Shown in pieces: positions 5,285 through 58,834 of a stretch of 60,420 bases of DNA (positions are counted from its first letter, which is position 1; every line of letters starts with the position of its first letter). The stretch is taken from positions 1-60,420 of the IMG/VR virus record IMGVR_UViG_3300042549_004702, one strand, 5' to 3'. The translations under genes were made by a program, and so were the position numbers. The notes below the pieces were generated by a model that was given only the letters and a program-made list of their open reading frames with translations, ran no database searches and was not told where the DNA came from. This stretch comes from a virus.

Positions 5285-5847
5285 CAGTTATTTTGCAAGT
5301 CGTTTACTTTTTTCTCGTCCACGACTGGATCATCCCAAACGCGCACTCCGTGAGACTCCGACCTGACGTGAAGCCCGATCTCTACCGCCAGCTCGTGCGC
5401 AGTCCGTGAGCACACGTCGATCGAGCCGCGCGTTGTCGCCGAGAAGCGAATGTACACGCGCTGAGTAGCTGGCACGTCCGTCAAACCGCGCACCAGGCAC
5501 AGCGTACACGTCCCGACGGATCGCACGTCGTAATTGACGTCGTCGATGCGCGGCCACACCTCGACGATAGCGATAGGCTCGAAGGAATACCCAGCGGTGA
5601 TAGCAGCGACCGCCTCTGTGCGTGTCTCCCAGCACTCCGGAGAGCGTCGGGGGAACTGCCCCCCCTGCTCTATGCGCCATCCATCAGCGGCGCGCACGAC
5701 GCGCTGAGCCGTGCTGGCTGCTGCTTCTCTCGCCGCTAGACGCGCATCTAGCGCGCGGTCATTGCGCTTCTTCAGCTGTGTCGGAGTCGCCGACACGCTC
5801 GACGACAGCGACATTGGCCGCAGTCTATTTTCGATTTTGGGCTTCAC
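5281..5847 (-). CDS. Hypothetical protein (188 aa)
   Basis: The GTG ending at 5847 has AGGAG at 4-5 bases spacing; a TTG at 5865 would add six residues. Residues 30-60 are Arg/Ala-rich and basic, followed by a mixed alpha/beta segment with C-x2-C (TCTLCL). The stop codon lies inside the -35 element of the next promoter. No family is recognised. Confidence 0.55.
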   Translation of the reverse strand: MKPKIENRLRPMSLSSSVSATPTQLKKRNDRALDARLAAREAAASTAQRVVRAADGWRIEQGGQFPRRSPECWETRTEAVAAITAGYSFEPIAIVEVWPRIDDVNYDVRSVGTCTLCLVRGLTDVPATQRVYIRFSATTRGSIDVCSRTAHELAVEIGLHVRSESHGVRVWDDPVVDEKKVNDLQNNC

Positions 5848-5854
5848 ATTGCTC

Positions 5855-6064
5855 CTAAATGTCAATCGCCCCTGATCGGGGCGTATCGGTGGGTTGCGGC
5901 TTGCGAAGCTGACTAGTCTCCCGCTCTCGCAATAGGTCGCAATGAATGCACCGGCGACCGAGTGATTGCCGGTGCGTAAAATGCGTTACCGGGGCGCATA
6001 TCGCGCATACCGGATAGTCGCCGAGGTGATCGTCACCGCACCTCTGGCAGATGGCGTCGTTCAC
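5855..6064 (-). CDS. Small zinc-ribbon-like protein (69 aa)
   Basis: A GTG start overlaps the preceding stop (GTGA). The product has three CxxC pairs: CQRC near residue 6, CAIC near 21 and CIHC near 41. This suggests one or two zinc ribbons, as in small DNA- or RNA-binding phage proteins. An ATG 12 bases upstream is an alternative start. Function unknown. Confidence 0.55.
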   Translation of the reverse strand: MNDAICQRCGDDHLGDYPVCAICAPVTHFTHRQSLGRRCIHCDLLRERETSQLRKPQPTDTPRSGAIDI

Positions 6065-6168
6065 AATGGCATCTCCCATCCGCGCCACGGGCGAACAACA
6101 GAGTCCGGCGTAAAGCCGGACTCGTAGTGCAGATGGCATAGTGCCGCGACGAGTGTGTCTCTTTTCAT
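6061..6168 (-). CDS. Tiny protein (35 aa)
   Basis: The frame runs from an ATG overlapping the upstream stop (TAATG) to a stop overlapped by the next start (GTGA). The product starts MKRDTLVAALCHLHYESG. Tight coupling on both sides is the main evidence that it is translated. No function is suggested. Confidence 0.4.
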   Translation of the reverse strand: MKRDTLVAALCHLHYESGFTPDSVVRPWRGWEMPL

Positions 6169-6815
6169 TATGCCACCTCCAGCTTAGTCCGCCGAAACGG
6201 CGTGACCATTGATGCGCCGGTTGTCCGACCGCAAGATGCCTCGTAGATGAGGCCAAATGACGTCCATGGGCCGATAGGCTCATCATTCGTAATCTCCATC
6301 GGCAGGTGTGGCTCACCCGCCCACTGACCGGAGGGATAACGCTTAATCGGCCACGAGAAATTTAGCCACCGCCAAATAAACGGATCAGCTGTTTGTAGCT
6401 GAGACTCGACCCGCAAAGCGGAAGTCCCCGCCATATCAAGCACTCGCGGCAAAGCCATCGCCGCCGCTAACTCTGACCAGACGGTGCCCTCAAATAGCCC
6501 GTCGTCACCCTGATGGGTGGCTGCGTAGAGCGCGCGCCAGTGGCTGCGCTCCGAGTAGGATCGGGGCTCAAATGTCTCCGTAAACGTCAGCGTGTCGCCC
6601 TCAAGCGCAAGCGTCGCGCGTCGGTAAAGCTGGGGACGCTCATGAGAGCTCCACTCGAAAGTGCAAGTATGCTCGATGCGACGAATTCTCATTGACGTTT
6701 CGTTGTTGGTCAGAGTCTGGAATAAATCCATACTCTCCGGGACATTGGCGGCAAATCCGCCGTATCCGAGGTGCTTCAAAATTGCGATGATGTGCTTGCT
6801 GTCGATCTGGTTCAT
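6168..6815 (-). CDS. Hypothetical early protein (215 aa)
   Basis: Begins MNQIDSKHIIAIL behind the repeated leader with CAGGAGACGAC. It is a soluble, Trp-rich alpha/beta protein with no motif I can name. It shares the start MNQID/MNQIN with the neighbouring 6867-7085 product, probably because the leader and first codons were duplicated together. Confidence 0.65.
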   Translation of the reverse strand: MNQIDSKHIIAILKHLGYGGFAANVPESMDLFQTLTNNETSMRIRRIEHTCTFEWSSHERPQLYRRATLALEGDTLTFTETFEPRSYSERSHWRALYAATHQGDDGLFEGTVWSELAAAMALPRVLDMAGTSALRVESQLQTADPFIWRWLNFSWPIKRYPSGQWAGEPHLPMEITNDEPIGPWTSFGLIYEASCGRTTGASMVTPFRRTKLEVA

Positions 6816-11662: not shown

Positions 11663-12534
11663 AGCTAACCAAGATCCTTAGCAGTCCGATTGCTTTTCAT
11701 CGATGCCTTGCAGAGTTGGCCGGGTCGGTGACATCTGGCTTGATGCTCAGTCAGGCCGTGTATTGGATGGGAAAGACCAAAGATCCGGATGGATGGTTCT
11801 GGAAGACTCAGGACGACTGGTTGGAAGAGACGATGCTCAGTCGAAAAGAGCAGGAATCTGCTCGTCGTCGGCTGAGAGAGATCACTTTTGAGGGGGAATC
11901 TTTGTGGTGTGAGCAGCTGCGTGGCGTACCGGCAAAGCTTTATTATCGAGTCGATATGGACATACTAGAACGCCTCTTAACGGCAGACCAGTATGCCCAA
12001 AAGGAGCAATCCAGTATGCCCAAAAGGGGCATACTAGAAAGCCCAAAAGGGGCATACAAGAACGCCCAAAAGGGGCATACATTCTTATTAGCAGAGACTA
12101 CTACAGAGACTACATCAGAGAGTACGGCAGAGAGTACGACAGAAACCACGGAACCGGCGCGCGCGCCGAGACCTCTTCACGTAGTCGAGAGTGCAGACAT
12201 TGACAGCTTAGGCGACGCATTCGACGAAGCCTACCCTGGCATGTTCAATCAGTGGGGAAAGCTGAAAGACATGCGTGAGCTTGTCAAACGCCTGAATGCG
12301 AATGCATCGCACGTACGAGAGTTTCCATCATGGCTCAAAAGAGCCTACCCCCTAAAAGCGAACAATCACTTTGCGTTCATGGATCTCTTCCCCGAGTTCG
12401 TGAAGCAGTCACCAAAGAAAGCGACTAAGCCTGTCTCCACTTGCGGCAAGTGTGATGCCGGGTACGTCGTCAACGATCAGGGGCTTGCGGCTAAATGCCC
12501 TTGCCAGTCACCACGTCAGGCCAAAGCAGTCTGA
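11659..12534 (+). CDS. Replication initiator / replisome organiser with internal origin
   Basis: 291 residues. The N-terminal ~105 residues carry the phage initiator winged-helix pattern (LMLSQAVYWMGKTKDPDGWF, then GVPAKLYYRVD). A Thr/Glu-rich linker lies near residues 145-165, followed by a helical region and a Cys-rich C-terminus (CGKC ... CPC) that may bind zinc. The coding sequence contains a 23-bp iteron array (11972-12080). DnaB follows directly. This is the lambda O / SPP1 gp38 arrangement: the initiator binds iterons in its own gene and loads the helicase. Confidence 0.8.
   Translation: MKLTKILSSPIAFHRCLAELAGSVTSGLMLSQAVYWMGKTKDPDGWFWKTQDDWLEETMLSRKEQESARRRLREITFEGESLWCEQLRGVPAKLYYRVDMDILERLLTADQYAQKEQSSMPKRGILESPKGAYKNAQKGHTFLLAETTTETTSESTAESTTETTEPARAPRPLHVVESADIDSLGDAFDEAYPGMFNQWGKLKDMRELVKRLNANASHVREFPSWLKRAYPLKANNHFAFMDLFPEFVKQSPKKATKPVSTCGKCDAGYVVNDQGLAAKCPCQSPRQAKAV
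11972..12080 (+). repeat. 23-bp iteron array, probable replication origin
   Basis: GCCCAAAAGGGGCATAC-type units start at 11995 (one change), 12018, 12041 and 12064, exactly 23 bp apart, and a decayed unit fits at 11972. The second unit is a full inverted repeat (GTATGCCC, AAAAG, GGGCATAC). Since 23 is not a multiple of three, the protein text differs at each unit, so selection is on DNA. Short CAGAGA-type repeats follow at about 12090-12160. Position within the initiator gene matches the lambdoid origin design. Confidence 0.85.
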
Positions 12535-15630: not shown

Positions 15631-16218
15631 ATGGTGCGCGTGATTCGCGATCAGGATATCGACGATCCGACCATCGAAGAATACGTGCACTTCCCAACGC
15701 CCGGACGCCTCGCGCCGTCTGTGCCAGTAGTGGCACAAGATCAGTCACAACCAGTGGCACAGTCAGTGGCACAAGCTCAGAATATCGAGTCTGTGCCCGT
15801 GACTGACTCGGTGGCACAAGGCCAAAATTCCGACCGTGTGACCAGCCCGTCACCGGTGGCACAATCGCCAATAATGCCGCCTGTGCCCGTGACACAACCA
15901 GTGGCACAGATACGTGTGTCACTAGTGGCACAACGGCCAAATCGGAGGTCATGTGCCACTAGTGGCACATTGGCGTTAAGGTCTGCTAAAATCAACAACT
16001 TACCGAAAGGCAAGTCTCACACTGTGCCACCACCAAAAATAGCGGGGCACGAGTGGCGACAAGCCGGTGCGGGATGGTCACTCTGGCGACGTGTGCCCAC
16101 AATTTCGGCGACAGGCAAGCGCACTTCTGAGCGCAAATATGTGCGATACATTACTCAGTCTGCAATCGAAAGGATCTACAATCGGAATGGAAAATCGAAA
16201 CCACAAACCAAGTCTTGA
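15631..16218 (+). CDS. Protein with PVAQ-type repeats and conserved C-terminal domain (195 aa)
   Basis: Residues 30-105 are a low-complexity region with seven xVAQ repeats, each encoded by GTGGCACA(A/G), the half-site of the palindrome array. The last ~65 residues (GHEWRQAGAGWSLWRRVP ... KYVRYITQSAIERIY) form a compact basic domain of a kind often seen in phage DNA-associated proteins. The repeats may be dictated by the DNA sites, not by protein function. A nucleic-acid-binding role is inferred from charge. Confidence 0.6.
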   Translation: MVRVIRDQDIDDPTIEEYVHFPTPGRLAPSVPVVAQDQSQPVAQSVAQAQNIESVPVTDSVAQGQNSDRVTSPSPVAQSPIMPPVPVTQPVAQIRVSLVAQRPNRRSCATSGTLALRSAKINNLPKGKSHTVPPPKIAGHEWRQAGAGWSLWRRVPTISATGKRTSERKYVRYITQSAIERIYNRNGKSKPQTKS

Positions 16219-16413
16219 GGAGGTGCAAAGTTGGCCTGTGCCACTTCAGCAGCTCGAACTTGCAATGCTCTGTGACTCGCCCGTGCCACTAGTGGCACAG
16301 CAGGCACAAGATCACCTATTCGTGGAAATCTCCATCGACACACCACAGCTCATATGCCAATTATGGGAGGAACAAGAGAGAGCTCAGGCCGTCATTTGAC
16401 GGCCCGTGCCACA
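15720..16413. repeat. Array of TGTGCCACTAGTGGCACA palindromes and half-sites
   Basis: Full or one-mismatch palindromes lie at 15720-15737, 15915-15932, 15951-15970 (perfect 20-mer) and 16282-16299. Half-sites (AGTGGCACA or TGTGCCACT and close variants) lie at 15753, 15765, 15792, 15810, 15855, 15882, 15900, 16023, 16237 and 16405. The sites continue through two genes in different reading frames and into the gap before the gene at 16431, so selection is on DNA. The spacing and density suggest a partition-like centromere, an operator cluster or a second initiation region. The best candidate binder is the 16431-17357 product. Confidence 0.8.
16187..16399 (+). CDS. Small acidic protein (70 aa)
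   Basis: Starts MENRNHKPSLEEVQSWPVPL, with GAAAGGA about 14 bases upstream, and overlaps the previous gene by 32 bases. It contains one full palindrome and one half-site of the array as coding sequence (PVPLVAQ). It is mostly helical and acidic; function unknown. Confidence 0.5.
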   Translation: MENRNHKPSLEEVQSWPVPLQQLELAMLCDSPVPLVAQQAQDHLFVEISIDTPQLICQLWEEQERAQAVI

Positions 16414-26797: not shown

Positions 26798-27218
26798 AAA
26801 GAAAGCTACAAAAGCAACGCCTAAAAAAGCAAAAGAAGCTCCGTGGCAAGATAGATTCTTGGAACTATTTGCTATCTCTTTAAACGTGGCTCTTTCTGCT
26901 CAAGGTGCTGGCGTAAATCGAACTACAGTTTATCGTGAAGCTGAACGCAACAACGATTTTGCTGATAAGTGGAACGAAGCTAAACAGTCAGCAATTGAAC
27001 GCCTTGAGGCCTCGGCTTATGATCGAGCGCATAAAACATCAGATACTCTCTTGATTTTTCTTCTCAAGTCTCACAAGCCGGGAATTTATCGAGAGACTCA
27101 TCACATACAGACAACTCAACTAAACATCAACTACGCAGACCTGACACAGCCGCAACTTGAGAGGCTCGCCAATGGTGAAGACCCAGCAACAGTCATATCA
27201 ACAAAACGCGATAGCTGA
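26790..27218 (+). CDS. terS: Terminase small subunit
   Basis: 142 residues. A Lys/Ala-rich N-terminal tail is followed by a helix-turn-helix (ISLNVALSAQGAGVNRTTVYREAERN) and the TerS-typical FADKWNEAKQSAIERLEASAYDRA and LLIFLLKSHKPGIYRE text. It recognises the packaging site and regulates the large subunit. Composition switches from AT-rich to the phage norm near 27090, so a recombination joint lies inside this gene. It overlaps TerL by 47 bases. Confidence 0.85.
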   Translation: MSKKKATKATPKKAKEAPWQDRFLELFAISLNVALSAQGAGVNRTTVYREAERNNDFADKWNEAKQSAIERLEASAYDRAHKTSDTLLIFLLKSHKPGIYRETHHIQTTQLNINYADLTQPQLERLANGEDPATVISTKRDS

Positions 27219-28599
27219 GTTGGCGCGGCGCGAGTTGCTGAGGCGTGGTCGAGACGAAAGCTTCATCGATTTTGTCAACCGGATCAATCGTCGTTACGTG
27301 TGGTACAAGCACTGTCAGGTAATCGCAAACGTAGTCGAGCGCGTCGAGCGTGGCGATATTAAGCGGCTGATGCTATTCGTTCCGCCACGTCACAGCAAAA
27401 GCGAGACAATCAGCCGACTATTCACGGCATACTACCTGCGCAAACATCCGGATCAGTGGGTTGGCCTGACAAGCTATTCGGCCGATCTGGCATACGTTCT
27501 CAGCAAGGCGTCTCAAGAAAACTTCGTCGAGTCTGGCGGTGTACTCGATAGTCGGGCCGGAGCGGTGAAGCACTGGCAGACAAGCGCAGGCGGCGGACTG
27601 TGGGCGACTGGTATAGGTGGGCCTATCACCGGCAAAGGCGCAAATCTTGCGCTTATCGATGACCCACTCAAGAACGCTGAAGACGCCTCAAGCGAGGTCA
27701 TCCGCGAGAAGCAGAAGGAATGGTACAACTCCACGCTATACTCCCGACTTGAGCCAGGTGGCGCGGTAATCGTCATTCAAACTCGCTGGCATGAGTCGGA
27801 CATCAGCGGCTGGTTGCTCGATCAGGAAAGCGAAAGCCCGGAACACTGGCACGTTGTGAACCTGCCGGCCATCGCTGAGGAGCCGCGCCTATTGCCTGAT
27901 ACGTGCACGTCTGAGCCGGACTGGCGCAACATTGGCGAGGCTCTATGTCCTGAGCGATACCCGCTTCACCGACTCGAGCAGATACGCTCACAGATCGGCG
28001 GATACTTCTTTGATGCGCTATACCAGCAGAGGCCAAGCGCGAAAGAGGGTAGTCATTTCAAGGTAGGTCAGCTGCAGATTGAAGACGCTCATCCGGTGCT
28101 ACTACGCGAATGCCGAGCGTGGGATCTGGCCGCGAGTGCCGGCAAAGGTGACTACACGGCAGGCGTCAGACTTGGTGTTGATGCTGATGGCGTCTGGCAT
28201 ATCGTTGACGTGCGGCGCGGTCAGTGGGCACCTGATGAACGCGACAACGAGATGCGGCAAGCGTCACAGCTCGACGGGCCAAAGGTGCGCATCAGGCTTG
28301 CTCAGGATCCGGGGCAAGCTGGCGTCGATCAGTCACAGCGATTAACACGTATGCTCTCAGGCTTCCCAGTGCGGTCAGAGCGCGTCAGTGGCGACAAGTC
28401 TACACGTGCATCAGGCTTGGCATCTCAGATCAATGCAGGCAACGTAAAGCTCGTAAAGGGTGCGTGGAATGCGGCATTTATCGAAGAGTTCCGCCAGTTC
28501 CCACACGGCAAGAATGATGATCTTGTCGATTCTACTGCAGACGCATTCAACGAACTATCGCTGGCGAATCAGTTCTCACAAGGCAAGCTGCTTCGATAG
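27172..28599 (+). CDS. terL: Terminase large subunit
   Basis: 475 residues from the ATG at 27172 (GAGAGG upstream; a TTG at 27157 is possible). ATPase: Walker A-like VPPRHSKSE at 71-79 and Walker B LALIDDP at 159-165. The RNase-H-like nuclease begins AWDLAASAGKGDYTAGVRLG and carries the later acidic DDLVDSTADAF. It packages DNA into the prohead, cutting concatemers. The family cannot be assigned to cos or headful from text alone. Confidence 0.95.
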   Translation: MVKTQQQSYQQNAIAELARRELLRRGRDESFIDFVNRINRRYVWYKHCQVIANVVERVERGDIKRLMLFVPPRHSKSETISRLFTAYYLRKHPDQWVGLTSYSADLAYVLSKASQENFVESGGVLDSRAGAVKHWQTSAGGGLWATGIGGPITGKGANLALIDDPLKNAEDASSEVIREKQKEWYNSTLYSRLEPGGAVIVIQTRWHESDISGWLLDQESESPEHWHVVNLPAIAEEPRLLPDTCTSEPDWRNIGEALCPERYPLHRLEQIRSQIGGYFFDALYQQRPSAKEGSHFKVGQLQIEDAHPVLLRECRAWDLAASAGKGDYTAGVRLGVDADGVWHIVDVRRGQWAPDERDNEMRQASQLDGPKVRIRLAQDPGQAGVDQSQRLTRMLSGFPVRSERVSGDKSTRASGLASQINAGNVKLVKGAWNAAFIEEFRQFPHGKNDDLVDSTADAFNELSLANQFSQGKLLR

Positions 28600-28610
28600 T
28601 TAATAGCTGA

Positions 28611-28638
28611 TTGTCGAAAAGTTTCGATGTGCTATGAT
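28611..28638 (+). promoter_or_regulatory. Possible sigma70 promoter after terL
   Basis: TTGTCG (28611-28616), a 16-bp spacer and TATGAT (28633-28638) lie in an AT-rich gap, followed by a terminator at 28677. A transcript starting here would be either attenuated or a short RNA. Confidence 0.4.
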
Positions 28639-28676
28639 GCATCATCTGGTCGTGGTTCGTTGTTCCTTTCTGTGCG

Positions 28677-28710
28677 GCGGGGGTCTATGGAGACTCCCGC
28701 TTTTCCTTTT
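28677..28710 (+). terminator. Intrinsic terminator after terL
   Basis: GCGGGGGTC (28677-28685) pairs with GACTCCCGC (28692-28700), one G-T pair, loop TATGGA, then TTTTCCTTTT. It separates terminase from the metallophosphoesterase/csf region. Confidence 0.75.
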
Positions 28711-28806
28711 GGTACTTGCTTATCCGGCAACCTCATACTTATTGTAAATAAATAAACCGTCGAATAACTGATACTTGCCAAGCCCTGTCGGAAAAGAAAG
28801 GAGCTT

Positions 28807-30084
28807 ATGGCGTATCCAAGTTTTTCAGACGAGAAGATTGCGCGAATCATCGAGTGTTACCTGCGCAATAATCGAAACATTCAAAACACCAGCATCCAGC
28901 TTGAGGTGGGCTACAATGCAGTATCAAAGTATGTCCGCAAATGGCAAATGGGCCAGCTGTCCCACATCCAACTCCCACCATATTCAGACGCGCCGGTAGA
29001 AGTACGAGCGCAAATCGAGAACGTCGAGAGCATCAGCACTGGCGATATGCGACGGCAAATTGTATCGCTTCGAAAAGAACGTGATGATCTGATGCGAGAG
29101 CGTGAACAGCTGCAGAAGGTTGCAGCCTTCTTTGAGTTCGTCAAGGAAGCAAGGATGGTTGTGCCTGAGTGGGTGAGCAAGCGACCATCACGAGGCAGCA
29201 AATCGGCAATACCAACGGCTCTATTCTCAGACGTGCATCTTGATGAGGTAGTGAAGCCGGAGCAGGTCAACTTTGTCAACGCATACAATCGAGCCATCGC
29301 CGAAGAGCGCGTGAAGCTGTTCTTCGATAACACGCTTGAACTATCAAAAGACTACTTGCAAGGCTTCAAGTACGAAGGCTTCGTAATGCCACTTGGCGGC
29401 GATCTCTTCAGCGGCATCATTCACGAAGAGCTTGCAGAGACCAATGCAGCCACGATCTTTGAGAGCTTGCTTTACTGGGCGGAACCGATAGCATCAGGCA
29501 TTCGCAAACTTCGCGATACCTTCGGGCGAGTCTTCCTGCCCTGCGTGGTCGGCAATCACGGACGACGCAAGCACAAGCCGCACGCAAAGAATCGCGCGCA
29601 GGACAACTTTGATTACTTCTTTTGCCACCTGCTGAACAAGTTGCTTGCCAACGAAAAGGGCATTACTTTTGCCATATCAGAAGCCAGCGATCAGCCGTAC
29701 AATGTCTTCGATACTCGATACCTTCTCACGCACGGCGACCAGTTCAGAGGCGGCAGTGGCATTGCCGGAATGCTGTCACCGCTGATGATTGGTGACGCGC
29801 GTAAACGAGAGCGTGAAAGCGCAGTCCAGCGGCCTTACGACTACCTGGTGATGGGACACTGGCATCAGCTGGCATTCCTTCGCGGACTCATCGTCAACGG
29901 ATCGGTCAAGGGATATTGCGAGTACGCCTTTCAGTCGAACTTTCGATATGAGCCACCACGTCAGGCATTCTGGATCACTGACGCCCACCACGGTGTAACG
30001 ATTCAGGCACCGATTCACGTTGCCGCCAAGAACGAAAAGTACTCAGCCAGCACCGGCAATCAAGCGATAGTCTCTATGGGGTGA
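28807..30084 (+). CDS. Metallophosphoesterase with N-terminal HTH
   Basis: 425 residues. Residues 5-50 read as a helix-turn-helix (EKIARIIECYLRNNRNIQN ... GYNAVSKYVRKW), then a coiled coil (about 75-105), then a calcineurin-like phosphoesterase: LFSDVHLDE, PLGGDLFSG, VVGNHGR, LLTHGDQF and MGHWHQ, giving the full set of metal ligands (D-x-H, GD, GNH, H, GH-x-H). It could be a nuclease or phosphatase acting on nucleic acid, since the HTH suggests a DNA target. Ribosome site AAAGGAGCTT. Confidence 0.85.
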   Translation: MAYPSFSDEKIARIIECYLRNNRNIQNTSIQLEVGYNAVSKYVRKWQMGQLSHIQLPPYSDAPVEVRAQIENVESISTGDMRRQIVSLRKERDDLMREREQLQKVAAFFEFVKEARMVVPEWVSKRPSRGSKSAIPTALFSDVHLDEVVKPEQVNFVNAYNRAIAEERVKLFFDNTLELSKDYLQGFKYEGFVMPLGGDLFSGIIHEELAETNAATIFESLLYWAEPIASGIRKLRDTFGRVFLPCVVGNHGRRKHKPHAKNRAQDNFDYFFCHLLNKLLANEKGITFAISEASDQPYNVFDTRYLLTHGDQFRGGSGIAGMLSPLMIGDARKRERESAVQRPYDYLVMGHWHQLAFLRGLIVNGSVKGYCEYAFQSNFRYEPPRQAFWITDAHHGVTIQAPIHVAAKNEKYSASTGNQAIVSMG

Positions 30085-30527
30085 AAATGACATCGAGGAG
30101 CAAAATTACAACCATCGAATCCGACGATCTCTTGACGTTTCGCGTATATCCAGAAAACAAGCGACTACACTTCGATGTATTTGTGTGGCCAAGTAGACGC
30201 AGGATGCGCGAGTACCTGAGAGAAGCAAGTCCTGGACTAAGCGTCTACCAGATACTGGCTTGTGTGCTATGGCCAACCAACGAAGCAGACCGTGCACGGA
30301 AGACTCAGCTTGGCGAGATCCATTTCAATAGACAGGACCTGGGGTCGGACACGATCTGTCACGAGGCTACCCACGCAGCCTTGAGATGGGCACGATATAT
30401 CGGCATTGATGTTGGCGAAGCAGGGGATGGCTCATCGGCTCCTGACTCCGAAGAGCTTGTCGCATACGCAGTCGGTACGATCGCGCACCAACTCGAGACT
30501 GTACTTGTCGATAAAAAGTACAAGTAA
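30081..30527 (+). CDS. HExxH metallopeptidase-like protein (148 aa)
   Basis: The motif ICHEATHAALRWARY is a zinc-binding HExxH helix, and SEELVAYAVGTIAHQLE downstream supplies a Glu in the position of a third ligand. This is the minimal zincin core seen in ImmA/IrrE- and SprT-like proteins, though no such family is certain. A GTG overlaps the upstream stop (GTGA); an ATG at 30087 has better spacing to GGGG. It lies just before the csf1-like gene. Confidence 0.65.
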   Translation: MKMTSRSKITTIESDDLLTFRVYPENKRLHFDVFVWPSRRRMREYLREASPGLSVYQILACVLWPTNEADRARKTQLGEIHFNRQDLGSDTICHEATHAALRWARYIGIDVGEAGDGSSAPDSEELVAYAVGTIAHQLETVLVDKKYK

Positions 30528-30576
30528 CTTGTGGATTTTTATCAACGATGTCCTTGTGATGTAGTAATATCACAGA

Positions 30577-30593
30577 GCCTCATATGTTGAGGC
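30577..30593 (+). promoter_or_regulatory. Leader hairpin just upstream of the csf1-like gene
   Basis: GCCTCA/TGAGGC stem with loop TATGT ends one base before the ribosome site GGAAAGGA. In the same 79-bp gap GTGAT/ATCAC forms another inverted repeat, and TTATCA followed 17 bases later by TAGTAAT could be a weak promoter. The gap marks the start of a separate transcription unit for the csf-like genes. Confidence 0.4.
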
Positions 30594-30605
30594 GGAAAGG
30601 ACAAA

Positions 30606-31286
30606 ATGGAACTGACCACGTCACGACTGATATACCCAGACGCGCCTTCGGGATTGCTGTCTGGGTATTGTTCTATTTGCGGCCAGTACGACATCACGCA
30701 CTTCCACCGCAACGACCTACTGACTCCCACCTCGGCCAACCTCACGGCCATCTTCGACTTTCACCACGAGCACGTTTGCCGCTTCTGTTCCGCTATATGG
30801 CGAGAACCGAAGAAGTATCACCGTGCAATTTACGCCGATCACGAATCGGTGCTATTCCCCGTGATATCTGCGGAGACCGCATCATCGGAGCGTCCGTTAT
30901 GGGCCGACGTTATCCGGCAAATGCCGACAGACCGAGAGCGCGTTATCGTGCTCACCACAGATCCTAAGAAGCGAGTGTGGCCATTTGCGCGCATCAGCTC
31001 CGGTAATGTGGCGTGCATATACCTTCACGATCCATCGCGTGGAGTGTCGGGCAATACCTGGGTAGAGATAGCACGGCTGAGAGAATGCCTTGTGATCATC
31101 GAAGAGGCTTACGAGCTTGGATTTTCGAAGCCAGCGATCGAGGAGTCGCTATTCACGTCCTACAATCAACTACAGGCCGTAGGATTGGCCACAACAACAC
31201 GAATGGAGAAAGCCATATCATCGTATAGGGCCACTCCTGAATTCCTGCCTGCGCTCATTGTGGCGCAAAGAAAGGTAACACTATGA
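30606..31286 (+). CDS. Csf1-like zinc-finger protein of a type IV CRISPR-like complex
   Basis: 226 residues. Cys22, Cys25, Cys58 and Cys61 form a split CxxC ... CxxC zinc finger with the intervening text HFHRNDLLT ... HHEHVC, the layout of Csf1 (Cas8-like large subunit of type IV effectors). The middle contains VIVLTTDPKKRVWPFARIS and the C-terminus is helical. The gene is followed with an ATGA overlap by Cas7/Csf2- and Cas5/Csf3-like genes, which is the strongest support. Csf1 identity from the finger alone would be weak. Confidence 0.7.
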   Translation: MELTTSRLIYPDAPSGLLSGYCSICGQYDITHFHRNDLLTPTSANLTAIFDFHHEHVCRFCSAIWREPKKYHRAIYADHESVLFPVISAETASSERPLWADVIRQMPTDRERVIVLTTDPKKRVWPFARISSGNVACIYLHDPSRGVSGNTWVEIARLRECLVIIEEAYELGFSKPAIEESLFTSYNQLQAVGLATTTRMEKAISSYRATPEFLPALIVAQRKVTL

Positions 31287-32719
31287 CCACATCAAACACT
31301 GGGATAATCGCGCCGTACCGATTCACGGCAAAGGCCACATCCACGGTTGCCCACGGAGAAGCCGGAGCCAACTCGACCGGGGCCAATAACACGACACTCT
31401 TTGCCCGGGAGTTGACATTGCTTCAGCGTGACCAGCTCTCGTACAGCAGCGACAAGGCGCAAGCGGCGATTGAATCACTGATGAACGTGATGCCGATCAC
31501 CGAGTCGTCTGTCGAGTTCCTTCGAACGCTATCAGGCGGCGAATTGATCGCGACACTATTTGCTGCTCAATTTCCGATCATTTATCGCGGCGAAGGAGAA
31601 GGACTATTCGCCGGACTCGAGCGTTACCAGTACCTGACAACGCGCCTGACTGACTCAGCCGTAGCTTGCACTACGCTTGCAACTGCGTGGGCGTACGTCT
31701 CGCGAAAGCTGAATCTGACCGCGCCATCAGCCTCGGCGCATATGCCGTTGATGGCACTCTTTGCACTGCCGAAGCCGATACAGGCGGCTGCGCTTGCGTC
31801 AGTCCTGAAAGCTCCTGAGATGGTCGTTATGGGCGCGCGAATGCTAGCCGAAGGACTCAAGGCCACTAACTGGAAATACGCAGAAGCCGCAGATCGAGAG
31901 ACCGAAGAGAAGGCTCAGTACAACGTGACATCTACGCAGCTTCTCGAGTTGTCGGCGAATAGGGGCAGCGTGCTAGCCGTGCGAATCCCTGCGATATCGG
32001 GCAACTCGCTTCGCCACAACATACTACGCGCACCAGGTGCGACGCGCCTTTTGTCGCATCTTGGACTTGGGCCGAATCAAACAATGGTACCGATCGCCGT
32101 TGAGCGGTTCCTGTACTCTGGCGGCAACACCGTCAAGGGCGCGAAGGCTCCGGGGGCGGCGGATCTACTAGAAGCAAAGGTGCGTAGTCACTATCCGATC
32201 GTTGACGCACTTGGCGGATCGTTCGATATGTTCCTGCTCACTCGGTCGCAGGTCAGCGTAAATAGCTGGATAGTATGCCGGGAGAATAACTGGATCACGG
32301 AGCGTAAGACAGAGGGAAGCATCGGATCCGATGTATCGATCTTCGATCTTATCAGCGAGGTGACACGTACTCGGTCAGGCATTGGCGGCAAGGACAAGGA
32401 GTCGGGACAGATGATCTTTGCCTACGAAGCTTTGGCCGCTCAGACAGAGATACTTGTAGAGGTCAGCTTCCAGCCATACACGCAGTTTGTCACGATTGGC
32501 GCGGTGATGCAGGCGTTGACGGACTGGAACACGGAAGGCGCGTTTCTTGGCGCGAAGTCGGCGCAGGGGCACTCGCAGTGGTTGCCAGACTTCCCGGATG
32601 ATGATCGATGGGCACTTGCTGCCGACTACATCGCACACCTCGACAAGAACCGAGAGACGTTGCGCGATGGACTCATCAAGGCCACATTCGGAACGGAGGT
32701 GCAGCTTTGTGGAGCGTAA
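31283..32719 (+). CDS. Cas7/Csf2-like RAMP protein with helical insertion
   Basis: 478 residues. RAMP/Cas7 features of Csf2 are visible: an N-terminal beta segment (FTAKATSTVAHGEAG), VRIPAISGNSLRHNILR at 234-249, RFLYSGGN near 275-282, and VRSHYPIVDALGGSFD ... SVNSWIVCREN at 300-335. Csf2 forms the crRNA-binding backbone of type IV effectors. Residues ~50-215 are an extra, mostly helical segment absent from simple Cas7 proteins, which may replace a missing Cas11 small subunit. Stop and next start overlap (TAATG). Confidence 0.8.
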   Translation: MTTSNTGIIAPYRFTAKATSTVAHGEAGANSTGANNTTLFARELTLLQRDQLSYSSDKAQAAIESLMNVMPITESSVEFLRTLSGGELIATLFAAQFPIIYRGEGEGLFAGLERYQYLTTRLTDSAVACTTLATAWAYVSRKLNLTAPSASAHMPLMALFALPKPIQAAALASVLKAPEMVVMGARMLAEGLKATNWKYAEAADRETEEKAQYNVTSTQLLELSANRGSVLAVRIPAISGNSLRHNILRAPGATRLLSHLGLGPNQTMVPIAVERFLYSGGNTVKGAKAPGAADLLEAKVRSHYPIVDALGGSFDMFLLTRSQVSVNSWIVCRENNWITERKTEGSIGSDVSIFDLISEVTRTRSGIGGKDKESGQMIFAYEALAAQTEILVEVSFQPYTQFVTIGAVMQALTDWNTEGAFLGAKSAQGHSQWLPDFPDDDRWALAADYIAHLDKNRETLRDGLIKATFGTEVQLCGA

Positions 32720-33447
32720 TGCACATTCCAGAGCTTGACGAGTATGGCGATCGTATAGCGGCTCTCGAGTATGAGCCGCTCAAGGTCACGGTGACGACGG
32801 ACTCGCCCGTCAGCTGCAATGATCCGATATCGCTTGACGGAGTGTTGGCATACGCAATGGTCACGGATGCACTCAAGGGACGGCCTTTTCCGCAAGGAAA
32901 GGGCCCATACTGGCAGCCGCTTCCGCTCCATTGCGCAAAGCTGATTGAGGGTTTGCCGCTATGGTCAAGTACCGACTTTGTACCGACCAACCTTCACAAG
33001 CGAATGACTCACATCCACAGACGGACGGCGGATAACCCGTACGCAATGATCGGCCTGATGCGATCTGCCTACGACAAGCGACCGCGCCGCTTCCCGTCTT
33101 CGGCCGCGGGGCCGTATATGGACTATCGAGTACCAGAGCGTCGTTACGTCGCGGAGTCGTGGTCGGCATTGTGTCTCGGCAATCTTGAAGAGGTGCGACG
33201 ACTTCTCACGCTTGTTGCGACTTTTGGCAAAGGCGGCAAGCGTGGGTCGGGATACGTTCGGCAATGGACGGTTGAGCCGGTCGCAGACTTTTCATTCTAC
33301 ACGCACGATGGCCGCGCTTTGCGCCCAGTGCCTATTGGTGCCACTGAAACAGCGTGGGCAGGGGTAAGGCAAGGGTGGACTCCTCCCTACTGGCTCAAGG
33401 AAACGTGGCTGCTTTGTCAGCCGTCAGATGTGGCATCGATATTATGA
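32719..33447 (+). CDS. Cas5/Csf3-like RAMP protein
   Basis: 242 residues from the ATG overlapping the Csf2-like stop. The N-terminus (LKVTVTTDSPVSCNDPISLDGVLAYAMV) matches the Csf3 pattern of a first RAMP strand followed by a dGLLAY-type helix. A Gly-rich loop at 169-183 (GKGGKRGSGYVRQW) is the typical RAMP C-terminal loop. Csf3 caps the 5' end of the crRNA in the complex. Position and overlaps fit csf1-csf2-csf3 order. Confidence 0.78.
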   Translation: MHIPELDEYGDRIAALEYEPLKVTVTTDSPVSCNDPISLDGVLAYAMVTDALKGRPFPQGKGPYWQPLPLHCAKLIEGLPLWSSTDFVPTNLHKRMTHIHRRTADNPYAMIGLMRSAYDKRPRRFPSSAAGPYMDYRVPERRYVAESWSALCLGNLEEVRRLLTLVATFGKGGKRGSGYVRQWTVEPVADFSFYTHDGRALRPVPIGATETAWAGVRQGWTPPYWLKETWLLCQPSDVASIL

Positions 33448-34247
33448 GCATTGTGAGCTGGGCCGATTACGGAATTACGGGTGAGGTCACGGTTGGACGA
33501 CCGGCAGCGGCAGCACCCTACAAGCGTCAGATTCAGCGACGCATCGACAAGGCATTGTCGGACATTGACCGCTTGGCCGTCTCCACAGACGGCCATTTTT
33601 ACTCGGCAATATCATTCGGTGCTGATTCGCTGGTCGCTGATCATCTGATGCGCCGCTACTATCCCGATCATCCGGCAATGTGGGTCAATCAAGGGCCGCT
33701 TGCTGAATGGCCTGACTGCCTGGCACTCAAGGATCAGATGGTAGCCAACGGTCTGCCGCTGGTCGAGTTGACACCGGACGTCACGCTCTACGATTGGTAT
33801 CGATTACACGGCATCCCGACGTCTTCGGCAATGGATAGCAAGGACGACAAGGAGCTGAACGAAGCGTTGATGTACGCGCCTATCCGGCGATACCAGGAGT
33901 CATCGGCGGCGCGTGGCTACTTGTGGGGGCTGAGGTATGATGGCGAAGGCAACCATCGTCGGATACTGATCCAAAGTCGAGGCACGCTATATCATCGAAA
34001 GACCGATGGTCAGTATGTGTGCTCTCCCGTCGGTCACTGGAGCAAGCACGAGATATGGGCATACATCGACCTGTTTGCGCTGCCCTACGCGAAGATGTAC
34101 GACATTGACCGACTCGAGATCCGCAACGGGCCGCCAATCGGCACAAGCGCGTTGAATATGGGGCGAATCGTGAAGCTGAAGCACAACTTCCCGCATATTT
34201 GGCGAGTAGCTGTCAGTGAGTTTCCCGAGTTGCAGAGGTACACGTGA
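33444..34247 (+). CDS. CysH-like PP-loop protein (PAPS reductase family)
   Basis: 267 residues starting at an ATG that overlaps the csf3-like stop (ATGA). The PP-loop SFGADS at 57-62 takes the place of SGGKDS, followed by VADHLMRRY. Later text includes CSPVGHWSKHEIWAYIDLFALPYAKMYD, typical of PAPS reductases. It lacks an obvious C-terminal redox Cys motif, so it may activate a substrate with ATP without sulfate reduction. CysH-like genes are a known companion of type IV-B csf loci. Confidence 0.85.
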   Translation: MSIVSWADYGITGEVTVGRPAAAAPYKRQIQRRIDKALSDIDRLAVSTDGHFYSAISFGADSLVADHLMRRYYPDHPAMWVNQGPLAEWPDCLALKDQMVANGLPLVELTPDVTLYDWYRLHGIPTSSAMDSKDDKELNEALMYAPIRRYQESSAARGYLWGLRYDGEGNHRRILIQSRGTLYHRKTDGQYVCSPVGHWSKHEIWAYIDLFALPYAKMYDIDRLEIRNGPPIGTSALNMGRIVKLKHNFPHIWRVAVSEFPELQRYT

Positions 34248-34813
34248 CGCCACCGTACAAAATCATAATGCGATCGCATCCGGATAGAGATGACCTTGTT
34301 GAGCAGATAAAGCCGCTACTGCCTGAAGATTCGATGTATAGCAGAGATTCCGCTCGTGAAGGTGGACGAGTAAACTTCATCCGCGCTATGACTATGGCTG
34401 AGGGTGACGCTTGCTTGCATCTTGAGGACGATATCATCCTTTGCCATGACTTCATCGACAACGTGAACCGTGTAGTAGAGTATCGCCCAGGTACGGTGAT
34501 TCAGTTCTTTTCGCGAAGATCGGCAGACATTGACATAGGGTCGCGATACGAATCAGGACGCACCTTTTTAGGCGCGCTTTGCTTTTTCTTGCCGTGTGGA
34601 ATGTCACGCGATTTGTTGAACCATTGGCCAGCGTGGAAGGACAAGGACAAACACTTCGACGCGGTCGATTTATTCGTTGCCGACTACCTGAAAAACCAAA
34701 AGCTCAAGTACTGGATCGAGATTCCTTGCTTGGTTCAGCATCGACAGGTCGTGTCAGTCGTCGATAGTCGTCGATCCAAGTACCGCCAGACATCTACCTT
34801 TCTTGGCGAATAG
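34244..34813 (+). CDS. GT-A type glycosyltransferase-like protein (189 aa)
   Basis: A GTG start overlaps the CysH stop (GTGA), with GCAGAGG upstream. The segment MAEGDACLHLEDDIILCHDF carries the EDD (DxD-type) metal-binding motif at 61-63. TFLGALCFFLPCGMSRDLLNHW and DAVDLFVADYL follow, as in small phage glycosyltransferases. It could glycosylate DNA, a virion protein or a surface sugar. Overlap with cysH suggests joint expression with the csf-like operon. Confidence 0.65.
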   Translation: MTPPYKIIMRSHPDRDDLVEQIKPLLPEDSMYSRDSAREGGRVNFIRAMTMAEGDACLHLEDDIILCHDFIDNVNRVVEYRPGTVIQFFSRRSADIDIGSRYESGRTFLGALCFFLPCGMSRDLLNHWPAWKDKDKHFDAVDLFVADYLKNQKLKYWIEIPCLVQHRQVVSVVDSRRSKYRQTSTFLGE

Positions 34814-34863
34814 CTCACCACTCGCCCGAAAAATTATTCTCGCGACTATCGCAATCTTGCGAT

Positions 34864-36294
34864 ATGAACAGCGAGAGCAACAAAAATTCACCCGCCTATC
34901 ACAACGAAGCTCACGACGAGATGGAGCGTCGGTGGGACATCATCGAAGCCGTATCAGGTGGTACGCTTGAGTTACGCGATGGTGGCGCAAAGTGGCTACC
35001 GCTCGAGCCTGCCGAAGACCAGCGCGATTACGCTATCCGGCTTCGTCGGGCAATATTCTTCAACGCCTTCGAGCGCACGTTGCACGGACTTGTTGGACTC
35101 GTGTTTCGCAAAGATCCCGAGCTTGCCGATGATAATCCCGATCGAATCAAAGAGCTCTGGGAGAACATCGACAATGCCGGAACACACGGCGCAGTCTTTG
35201 CCAAGGAAGCGTTCACGATTGCGTGTAAGTACGGTCATTCGCTGATCTATGTCGATATGCCGCCAGCACTGCCGGAAGGCGCAACGCTTGCCGATGAGCG
35301 CGCCGCCAATCGTCGCCCTTACTGGGTGATGTATGAGCCGGATCAGATCGTCAACTGGCGCGTCGAGTCAGTCAACGGGCAGTCAATGGTGACACTGCTT
35401 GTGCTAGAGGAAGAGACAAACGAGCCTGACGGTCTGTACGGTGAAGAGGAAGTGACGCGGTACCGAGTACTTAGACCGGGATACTGGGAGCTGTTCCGCG
35501 AAGTCAAGAATGATCTGACAGGGGCTACAGAGTACTTGCTCGAGGCTACTGGCGCGTCAAGCCTGCCGTATATCCCCGTCTCAGTGATCTATGCTCGAAA
35601 GACTGGCACACTGACCAGCACCCCGCCATTGCTTGATCTGGCACTGATCAATCTCGCGCATTACCAGAAATACTCAGACTACTCAACGTACCTGCATATC
35701 AGTAGTCGTCCGATCCTATGGTTTCGTGGACGCGATATCAGCAAGGGAGTTGAGGCCATCGGCCCGTACACGTTCTTTGACGTTGACGGCACCAACGGCA
35801 ACGTCGGATTCGCAGAGACCAGCGGCGCGGCACTTGGCGCAGCTAAGGCGGACATTGACCATCTTGAGAAGCAGATGGCAATGCTTGGATTGACGCTACT
35901 TGCCGGCAACAAACCAGTACAGCAAACAGCTACTGAAGCATTGCTCGACTCAGTCAAGGAAGAGTCGGACTTGGCAACCGCTGCCAGATCGCTACAGGAC
36001 GCGCTAGAACTGGCTTTGCATTGCACGGCAGCCTATGAGGGCATCGAGTCCGGCAGCGTGGCTCTTGGCTCAACTATGACCGATTTGACGCTATCGCCTG
36101 AAGAGATGCGAGTGTGGATTGACAGCGCAGACAAGGTGTTCTCGAAGAACACGATCTACGAGGTATTCAAGCAGGCCGGTAAGTTGCCTGATGGCTTCAA
36201 CGCAGATCAGGAACGGATTGCTATTGAAGCGGATGCCTCAACGATGGGCGATCAGCTACTCGCAGCTTTCGACCAAGGTAAACCGATAGCGTAG
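34864..36294 (+). CDS. Portal protein (DUF4055 type)
   Basis: 476 residues. Key text: RDYAIRLRRAIFFNAFERTLHGLVGLVFRKDPEL, then VMYEPDQIVNWRVES and SVIYARKTG, matching DUF4055-type portals. A C-terminal helical part (KADIDHLEKQMAMLGLTLLAG ... TATEALLDSVKEESDLATAARSLQDALE) is the crown/stem region. It forms the dodecameric channel for DNA. No standard Shine-Dalgarno is seen before the ATG; an ATCGCA/TGCGAT hairpin abuts it. Confidence 0.88.
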   Translation: MNSESNKNSPAYHNEAHDEMERRWDIIEAVSGGTLELRDGGAKWLPLEPAEDQRDYAIRLRRAIFFNAFERTLHGLVGLVFRKDPELADDNPDRIKELWENIDNAGTHGAVFAKEAFTIACKYGHSLIYVDMPPALPEGATLADERAANRRPYWVMYEPDQIVNWRVESVNGQSMVTLLVLEEETNEPDGLYGEEEVTRYRVLRPGYWELFREVKNDLTGATEYLLEATGASSLPYIPVSVIYARKTGTLTSTPPLLDLALINLAHYQKYSDYSTYLHISSRPILWFRGRDISKGVEAIGPYTFFDVDGTNGNVGFAETSGAALGAAKADIDHLEKQMAMLGLTLLAGNKPVQQTATEALLDSVKEESDLATAARSLQDALELALHCTAAYEGIESGSVALGSTMTDLTLSPEEMRVWIDSADKVFSKNTIYEVFKQAGKLPDGFNADQERIAIEADASTMGDQLLAAFDQGKPIA

Positions 36295-57946: not shown

Positions 57947-58834
57947 CTAGCCAACTTTGAGAAAATCACCGGACGACTCGTCCGGCCTATTGTGCAAGTA
58001 TCGATCGGTGATTGAGATCGACGAATGACCCAGCGTTGAGCTGACTAGCTTCAGCGGCGCGCCGTGGTCGAGTGAGTGTGTGGCGTGGCTATGCCTGAAC
58101 CAGTGCGGCGAGAGCTTGTCCGTGATGCCTGCGCGCTTCGCCGTAGCCTTGACGATACTCCACGCCCTCTGACGGGTGATCGGAAAGATACGCTCGCTAT
58201 TCTCTGCCCCGTCACGAATATCCTGCAACGCTGACACAAGCGTTAGCGGTATCTGTACCACTCGCGTCTTGCCGCCTTTGCCGAATAGCGTGACTTGGCC
58301 TTGCTCCGGCTTGACGACCAGATCCGCCCAGGTGATCGTTACCACTTCCGATATGCGGCCTGCCGTGCGATACATCATACGGATGAGTGCCTTGTCGCGA
58401 GGACTCCAAGCCGCCATCGTAAGCCTCAGTACCTCCTCTTCGGTCAGGATGCGTTCGTTGAGGGTATCCTTGCTTTGAGGTGCTCTCAGCAAAGCTGCCA
58501 CGTTGACGCGCACATATCCGATCTTGTGGCAGAAGCTGTACAACGACTTGACCGACGCTATCCGCTGCGCCTGAGTTGCCGGACGCATCGACGAGAGCGA
58601 CTCGGTGAAAATCAGCAGGTCATTCAGCGTCATCTCGCAGATCTGGCGACCAGTCACTTCGAAGAGGCGACGCACTGATAACTGGTACTGGTACACGGTC
58701 TTTGCGTTGCGCTTCGTCGCCAGCCATAGCGCGATGACCTGATCGTCATTCGCGGCATCAGCTACGGACATATCACCTGCATTGCGGATGAGCTGCCGTG
58801 GCTGTTCTGGTTCGTATCTCTGGATATTCGACAT
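57947..58834 (-). CDS. Tyrosine recombinase, XerD/integrase type
   Basis: 295 residues with all catalytic residues: Arg160 (TAGRISEV), Lys189 (GKGGKT), His244 and Arg247 (HWFRHSHATH), His270 (LGHSS) and Tyr279 (TDRYLH). The N-terminal SAM-like core-binding domain spans about residues 30-115. The overall layout is closer to XerC/XerD than to lambda Int, so it may resolve genome dimers as well as, or instead of, integrating. No attP was identified. Confidence 0.92.
   Translation of the reverse strand: MSNIQRYEPEQPRQLIRNAGDMSVADAANDDQVIALWLATKRNAKTVYQYQLSVRRLFEVTGRQICEMTLNDLLIFTESLSSMRPATQAQRIASVKSLYSFCHKIGYVRVNVAALLRAPQSKDTLNERILTEEEVLRLTMAAWSPRDKALIRMMYRTAGRISEVVTITWADLVVKPEQGQVTLFGKGGKTRVVQIPLTLVSALQDIRDGAENSERIFPITRQRAWSIVKATAKRAGITDKLSPHWFRHSHATHSLDHGAPLKLVSSTLGHSSISITDRYLHNRPDESSGDFLKVG

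Follow-up and report, generated by a model that had tools for sequence, protein, structure and literature searches.

A phage-borne type IV-B-like csf operon whose Cas7 subunit probably carries an embedded Cas11-like domain

The IMG/VR virus record IMGVR_UViG_3300042549_004702 (60,420 bases; the whole record was analyzed and is called the window here) carries four same-strand genes, csf1, csf2, csf3 and cysH, which lie head to tail with stop-start overlaps at positions 30606–34247. The Cas7 subunit, Csf2, contains a helical insert that resembles the small CRISPR-Cas subunit Cas11; Cas7 and Cas11 thus appear to be joined in one chain, a build unseen in the other type IV systems compared. Gene identities, domain architecture, selection and mobility of the module were all read from the sequence. 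In our best explanation, to which we assign a probability of roughly 0.55, the operon is a type IV-B-like Csf module carried as phage cargo, with a Cas11-bearing Cas7 and a CysH partner, and would form an RNA-loaded complex for counter-defense or competition.

Gene content and type IV-B affiliation

30606–31286, plus strand: csf1, Cas8-like large subunit, 226 amino acids (aa), two CxxC pairs; PADLOC Csf1_0_IV, E = 7.1e-10, residues 19–220
31283–32719, plus strand: csf2 (Cas7) with embedded Cas11-like domain, 478 aa; PADLOC typeIV_Cas7, E = 2.1e-26 (residues 232–464 only), and Foldseek
31418–31966, plus strand: Cas11-like insert, Csf2 residues 46–228 (183 residues); hhalign against IV-B Cas11
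32719–33447, plus strand: csf3 (Cas5), 242 aa; PADLOC Csf3_0_IV, 5.7e-28; NCBIfam cas5_csf3, 4e-12, under the curated cut-off
33444–34247, plus strand: cysH-like gene for a PP-loop protein, 267 aa; Pfam PAPS_reduct PF01507, 2.4e-9

The operon is real, its profile matches lie far outside what chance would give, and its four genes are almost certainly correctly identified. The initial annotation had placed four tightly overlapping genes here, between the terminase and portal genes of a phage, and had called them Csf1-like, Csf2-like, Csf3-like (Cas5) and a CysH PP-loop protein. The arrangement is present as claimed, the Csf1 and Csf3 calls are borne out by the PADLOC profiles, and for CysH the Pfam match is seconded by NCBIfam. 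Every motif it had named was also found: the Csf1 CxxC pairs (YCSICG and VCRFC), SGNSLRHNILR and LYSGGN in Csf2, the glycine-rich loop of Csf3 (FGKGGKRGSG) and a PP-loop-like motif in CysH. Neighboring frames overlap by four bases at csf1/csf2 and at csf3/cysH. The start of csf3 is the ATG at 32719, which overlaps the csf2 stop codon (TAATG), and that of cysH is the ATG at 33444, which overlaps the csf3 stop codon (ATGA); the listed starts, 32608 and 33354, were too early. Relatives were collected by scanning IMG/VR and 84,980 genomes, with the window itself as L001. All four genes are under strong purifying selection, with ratios of nonsynonymous to synonymous substitution rates (dN/dS) of 0.02–0.16 relative to L002 and L008 (0.04–0.12 for csf1).

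Csf2 was modeled with AlphaFold2 from an eight-sequence alignment, at a predicted local distance difference test score (pLDDT) of 66.6. The initial annotation was to be dropped if the best structural matches were not Cas7 or Cas5 proteins; for Csf2, a Foldseek search of the PDB returned type IV-A Csf2 at the top (7xg1_G, E = 1.8e-4, then 7xg2, 7xg0, 8rc3 and others); the best-ranked matches were class 1 Cas7-type backbone subunits, and the IV-B Csf2 7jhy_a was also found (E = 0.036). Its description of Csf2 as a Cas7 repeat-associated mysterious protein therefore stands on PADLOC and Foldseek evidence, while the embedded Cas11-like insert had been missed. NCBIfam TIGR03115 scored only 0.057, no PDB sequence was a useful match to Csf2 by phmmer or hmmsearch, and Foldseek of the full model against viral structures gave nothing at E ≤ 0.001.

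In a tree of Csf2 cores, type IV-A split off with support of 100/100 and the window Csf2 fell on the IV-B side, so the array-less, cysH-linked type IV-B loci had been the right comparison. Eight distinct Csf2 proteins of the fused form made up one clade (100/100) on a long stem (2.33), and this clade attached weakly to archaeal plasmid IV-B (85/64). The window protein has 478 aa, compared with approximately 290–390 aa in IV-B relatives.

The helical insert of Csf2 and its relation to Cas11

Csf2 from the window and seven close relatives was aligned with 18 other Csf2 sequences (IV-A, IV-B and Gloeobacter). The insert is one continuous extra block between the first strand and loop (HGEAGANSTGxNNTTLFARE) and the VPxISGN motif; it is present in the window protein and the seven relatives and in none of the other 18. 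Modeled alone, it was predicted to consist almost entirely of helices (pLDDT 85.5, predicted template modeling score 0.84). Its dN/dS relative to L008 and L010 is approximately 0.1, as in the core, which indicates that the insert is maintained.

Profile comparison with hhalign matched the insert to a profile of ten IV-B Cas11 proteins (P = 4.6e-6, score 41.4, 78 columns), and the aligned part covers Csf2 residues ~118–197 (31634–31873). The match held with the direction swapped (P = 2.3e-5) and when each Cas11 was dropped in turn (P = 3.6e-7 to 6.6e-6), and it reached P = 1.7e-7 over 95 columns when a second, cyanobacterial-type Cas11 set was added to the profile. The control comparisons gave P = 0.47 for the Csf2 core against Cas11 and P = 0.66–0.67 for reversed profiles, and the score never exceeded 21.0 in 200 column shuffles. 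When the insert was compared with 44 families, made by automatic clustering of the proteins from DNA fetched for comparison, two Cas11 profiles, a curated and an automatic one, took the top two ranks with scores of 41.5 and 40.4, ahead of the next family at 24.2.

The gene order points the same way. The compared IV-B plasmids and Skermania phage SPI1 have a Cas11-size gene directly before csf2, which corresponds to the position of the insert in the fused gene. The window operon has no separate cas11 and no free gene between csf1 and cysH, and it is therefore a variant rather than a standard IV-B operon. Production of a free Cas11 by internal initiation was considered and rejected; there is no stop codon between the insert and the C-terminal part of Cas7. 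On these comparisons, a Cas11 origin of the insert is likely, though short of proven.

Several observations count against our interpretation. Confidence in the full Csf2 model is only moderate (pLDDT 66.6). The insert, although well predicted, had no Foldseek match in the PDB, not even to the 3.9-Å IV-B Cas11 of 7jhy, and hmmsearch against PDB sequences found none either. The second-lineage Cas11 profile alone scored only P = 0.017, and hhalign with single sequences was weak: when ranked alongside unrelated proteins, one Cas11 came first and the rest did not rise above the background. Beyond the insert, the window record may be incomplete, so that an array could lie elsewhere, and a role specific to CRISPR RNA (crRNA) is not favored because the published IV-B complex showed no crRNA enrichment (PMC7937560).

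The missing structural match would also suit an alternative in which operon and complex are the same but the insert is a helical domain particular to this lineage, with no relation to Cas11 (a target-RNA lid, for example), and Cas11 was lost as in type IV-A. At 183 residues, the insert exceeds most of the stand-alone Cas11 proteins compared here in length, and only ~80 residues align. Set against this are the profile match with its several controls, the all-helical fold, and a location adjoining the cas11 position of related operons in an operon with no separate cas11 left; we regard an unrelated insert as distinctly unlikely.

CysH, guide sources and cargo behavior

The CysH-like protein departs from both its IV-B counterparts and true reductases. 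Its PP-loop motif is SFGADS compared with SGGKDS in IV-B CysH, all six clade members seen share the form SFG[AV]DS, and in the alignment the protein lacks the C-terminal catalytic Cys motif of true PAPS reductases. Both features fit the description of CasCysH in the literature as an ATP pyrophosphatase-like protein (PMC8175902). Two of the relatives, L006 and L007, are 86–94% identical in Csf1–3 but only 36% identical in CysH (cysH at L006:5384–6079 and L007:9428–10129). CysH from L007 groups with its counterpart from a Gloeobacter plasmid (94/98), and in both a cupin gene is next after cysH, the L007 cupin having been called from its sequence. Because these two loci differ in cysH on a near-constant csf1–3 backbone, the data suggest that CysH is an exchangeable partner, and this natural exchange implicates CysH as the module's functional output. 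Between its cysH and csf3, L007 has also gained a cupin-like gene.

The PAPS reductase matches in Pfam and NCBIfam, and the frequency of cysH as a phage auxiliary gene, could instead mean that CysH is an ordinary auxiliary metabolic gene for sulfate assimilation that neighbors Cas-like genes by chance. The clade-wide change of the PP-loop and the missing Cys motif contradict this, as do the adjacency of cysH to csf genes in the compared IV-B operons and its exchange as a unit next to csf2, and a chance metabolic neighbor is very improbable.

A Cas6 profile search of the window record gave no match, and Cas6 is missing from most relatives too; it was found only in L009, a carrier of fused Csf2 in which cas6 lies between csf3 and cysH (5605–6228, PADLOC 8e-45). 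No CRISPR-like array was present among the short-distance direct repeats of the window, all of which were coding repeats or iteron-like sites. Around the relatives with fused Csf2, too, local scans for repeats recognized no array, including the scanned 15 kb of the 17-kb L009 contig. A repeat pair upstream of L009 csf1 was rejected as an array, having two copies that are 72% alike.

The cas6 of so close a relative would fit true RNA-guided interference, in which crRNAs are borrowed in trans from a host array and rival phages or plasmids are repressed; type IV-A is known to repress plasmids without cutting (PMC11656645). Neither cas6 nor an array was found in the window record, and the purified IV-B complex showed the lack of crRNA enrichment noted above; we therefore consider borrowed-guide interference unlikely.

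Other repeats were seen in the course of these scans. Virus locus L053 has, at 1330–1724, tandem GC-rich hairpins (CCCCAC-N4-GTGGGGGTG, unit ~37 nt) with variable stretches between them, as have L054, L055, L056 and L057. No long open frame is apparent there, the number of units varies between near-identical phages, and the hairpins lie ~3 kb upstream of a cas11-csf2-csf3-cas6-cysH operon; a short-spacer guide array for that operon's Cas6 is possible. In the window itself, an O-like replication gene contains four iteron-like repeats (TATGCCCAAAAGGGGCATA) with 23-nt spacing at 11958–12077, an arrangement like that of the lambda origin. At 15720–16299 there are nine GTGGCACA octamers along with several TGTGCCACTAGTGGCACA palindromes, mostly within an open reading frame (ORF) at 15631–16218 that matches no known family; they look like a cluster of putative protein-binding sites.

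Upstream of csf1, RNAfold predicted a structured leader:

30549–30603, plus strand: csf1 leader, predicted three-way junction

Its outer stem pairs TGTCCT (30549–30554) with AGGACA (30598–30603) around hairpins at 30555–30574 and 30577–30593, and the predicted junction encloses and hides the GGAAAGGA ribosome-binding site. A GCCTC...GAGGC hairpin also occurs upstream of csf1 in L008 and L010, where the enclosing stem has another sequence. With three sequences, a shared structure is suggestive, and as modeled it looks like translational control rather than a guide.

The operon is phage cargo, being present, absent or inverted at one slot in related phages. Fused Csf2 occurs in nine further contigs, eight from viruses (L002–L009) and one, L010, from a Pseudomonadota metagenome-assembled genome (MAG), on a contig with phage genes. 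That contig was the one match among the 84,980 cellular genomes scanned, and a scan of 286 genomes of the MAG's class for the fused clade returned only the same MAG. In the window, the module follows the terminase, a metallophosphoesterase-like gene and a 148-aa ORF (27157–30527) and precedes a glycosyltransferase-like gene and the portal (34244–36294), as the initial annotation had it for terminase and portal. L008 and L010 share this slot: there, too, the module follows the phosphoesterase and small ORF. L003 carries it on the opposite strand, flanked by the same neighbors, with a promoter-like match (TTGCAA-16-TATAAT) just upstream of the inverted csf1; promoter-like matches overall were no commoner than in shuffles. 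L039, L040 and L042 lack csf genes but have the phosphoesterase, the small ORF and the portal, the last being 56–62% identical to that of the window.

27157–28599, plus strand: terminase large subunit; phrog_38, 1.8e-92
34244–34813, plus strand: small glycosyltransferase-like gene, 189 aa, overlapping the cysH stop; phrog_854, 5e-10
34864–36294, plus strand: portal protein; phrog_145, 3.7e-115

The glycosyltransferase-like gene was seen only in contigs 95–98% identical to the window and has no match in L038, which is from the L008 phage and covers csf2 to portal; it probably lies outside the module core. The GC content of the module (0.562) differs little from that of its flanks (0.53–0.56). 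The phage is probably temperate because it carries an integrase gene (57947–58834, minus strand). A second PAPS-reductase-like and/or ParB-like gene was a recurrent neighbor of type IV-B modules in phages and plasmids:

L003:10926–12182, L008:11575–13214, L009:8842–10755, L012:8050–8685 and L016:7305–8672: second PAPS-reductase-like/ParB-like genes

Proposed function and comparison with known systems

The published IV-B complex bound heterogeneous RNA, with crRNA not enriched, and Csf1 and Csf3 were unseen in it (PMC7937560). By analogy with that complex, we infer a ribonucleoprotein in which Csf2 would polymerize along RNA of fixed length as the Cas7 backbone. Each Csf2 would bring its own Cas11 domain, making the second (Cas11) filament covalent and 1:1 with Cas7, and Csf3 and Csf1 might cap the filament ends. 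CysH would serve as the partner enzyme, its PP-loop using ATP to modify the bound RNA, a target or a partner. With no guides of its own, the complex may load small RNAs made elsewhere, either host crRNAs or other small RNAs, and once loaded it could blunt host RNA-guided defense or silence competing mobile elements, to the benefit of the phage. We advance this functional role tentatively. More speculative still is the broader proposal of a phage-specific IV-B branch with a covalent Cas7-Cas11 filament, no guide source of its own and an exchangeable CysH effector, serving as an RNA-capturing machine for counter-defense or competition and not for adaptive immunity.

Few CRISPR types are as poorly understood as type IV-B, which has no guides, no nuclease and an unexplained CysH partner. 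Cas7 and Cas11 in one chain would fix the filament stoichiometry and offer a simpler object for structural work, and a removable phage cargo with empty-slot relatives makes it possible to ask what role IV-B plays for its carrier element.

Among known systems, the actinobacterial plasmid IV-B loci (Mycobacterium sp. JS623, PDB: 7JHY; Rhodococcus pREL1) share with the window csf1, csf2, csf3 and a cysH-like gene, the absence of adaptation genes and, typically, of an array, and detection of Csf2 and Csf3 by type IV profiles. They differ in having a stand-alone cas11, a Csf2 of ~285–300 aa rather than 478 aa, and SGGKDS rather than SFGADS in CysH. Skermania phage SPI1 (KR011061; L011:5740–9373) carries a complete canonical IV-B locus annotated as hypothetical proteins only. 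Like the window, it is a phage genome with csf1, csf2, csf3 and cysH in the same order; unlike the window, it has a separate cas11 (137 aa; PADLOC Cas11, 5.9e-15; 7jhy_h, 4.9e-7) and a 339-aa Csf2 without insert, and its Csf3 is 29% identical to that of the window. The Gloeobacter plasmid pGMOR1 and the virus loci L053–L058 also have cysH-linked type IV genes, and L053 and related loci have a CysH 47–48% identical to that of the window; unlike the window, they have a separate Cas11-like gene immediately ahead of a csf2 without interruption (385–400 aa), and they also have cas6.

The type IV-A set of dinG helicase, csf5/cas6 and array was not found, there being no Cas6 and only phage genes as neighbors, although no search of the whole record was aimed at DinG. 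Nor do the operon proteins include the Cas10-like large subunit with HD domain of type IV-C: Csf1 is present, and none of them matched a Cas10 profile.

Phage or prophage IV-B has already been published (PMC10848311, PMC11656645). The Fuxiviridae IV-B loci of Bathyarchaeia viruses resemble the window in being virus-encoded with CysH beside Csf3, but they belong to archaeal viruses and have a two-repeat mini-array and typical components, and the available portion of that report describes no Cas7-Cas11 fusion (PMC10848311). Cas7 and Cas11 do share one polypeptide in type III-E Cas7-11 and III-I Cas7-11i, where one Cas11 is joined to at least three Cas7 domains in a single-protein type III effector (PMC12669027). 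The window protein instead has one Cas7 domain with a Cas11-like domain nested in it, presumably polymerized, and Csf1 and Csf3 are separate genes. A type IV Cas7 with nested Cas11 was not met in the literature searched, whose coverage did not extend to Pinilla-Redondo 2020 and Moya-Beltran 2021, and the accessible text of the 2025 CRISPR-Cas classification (PMC12669027) does not mention a type IV Cas7-Cas11 fusion. Phage-borne IV-B is thus known in itself, and what is new here is the anatomy, a Cas11-like domain inside Cas7.

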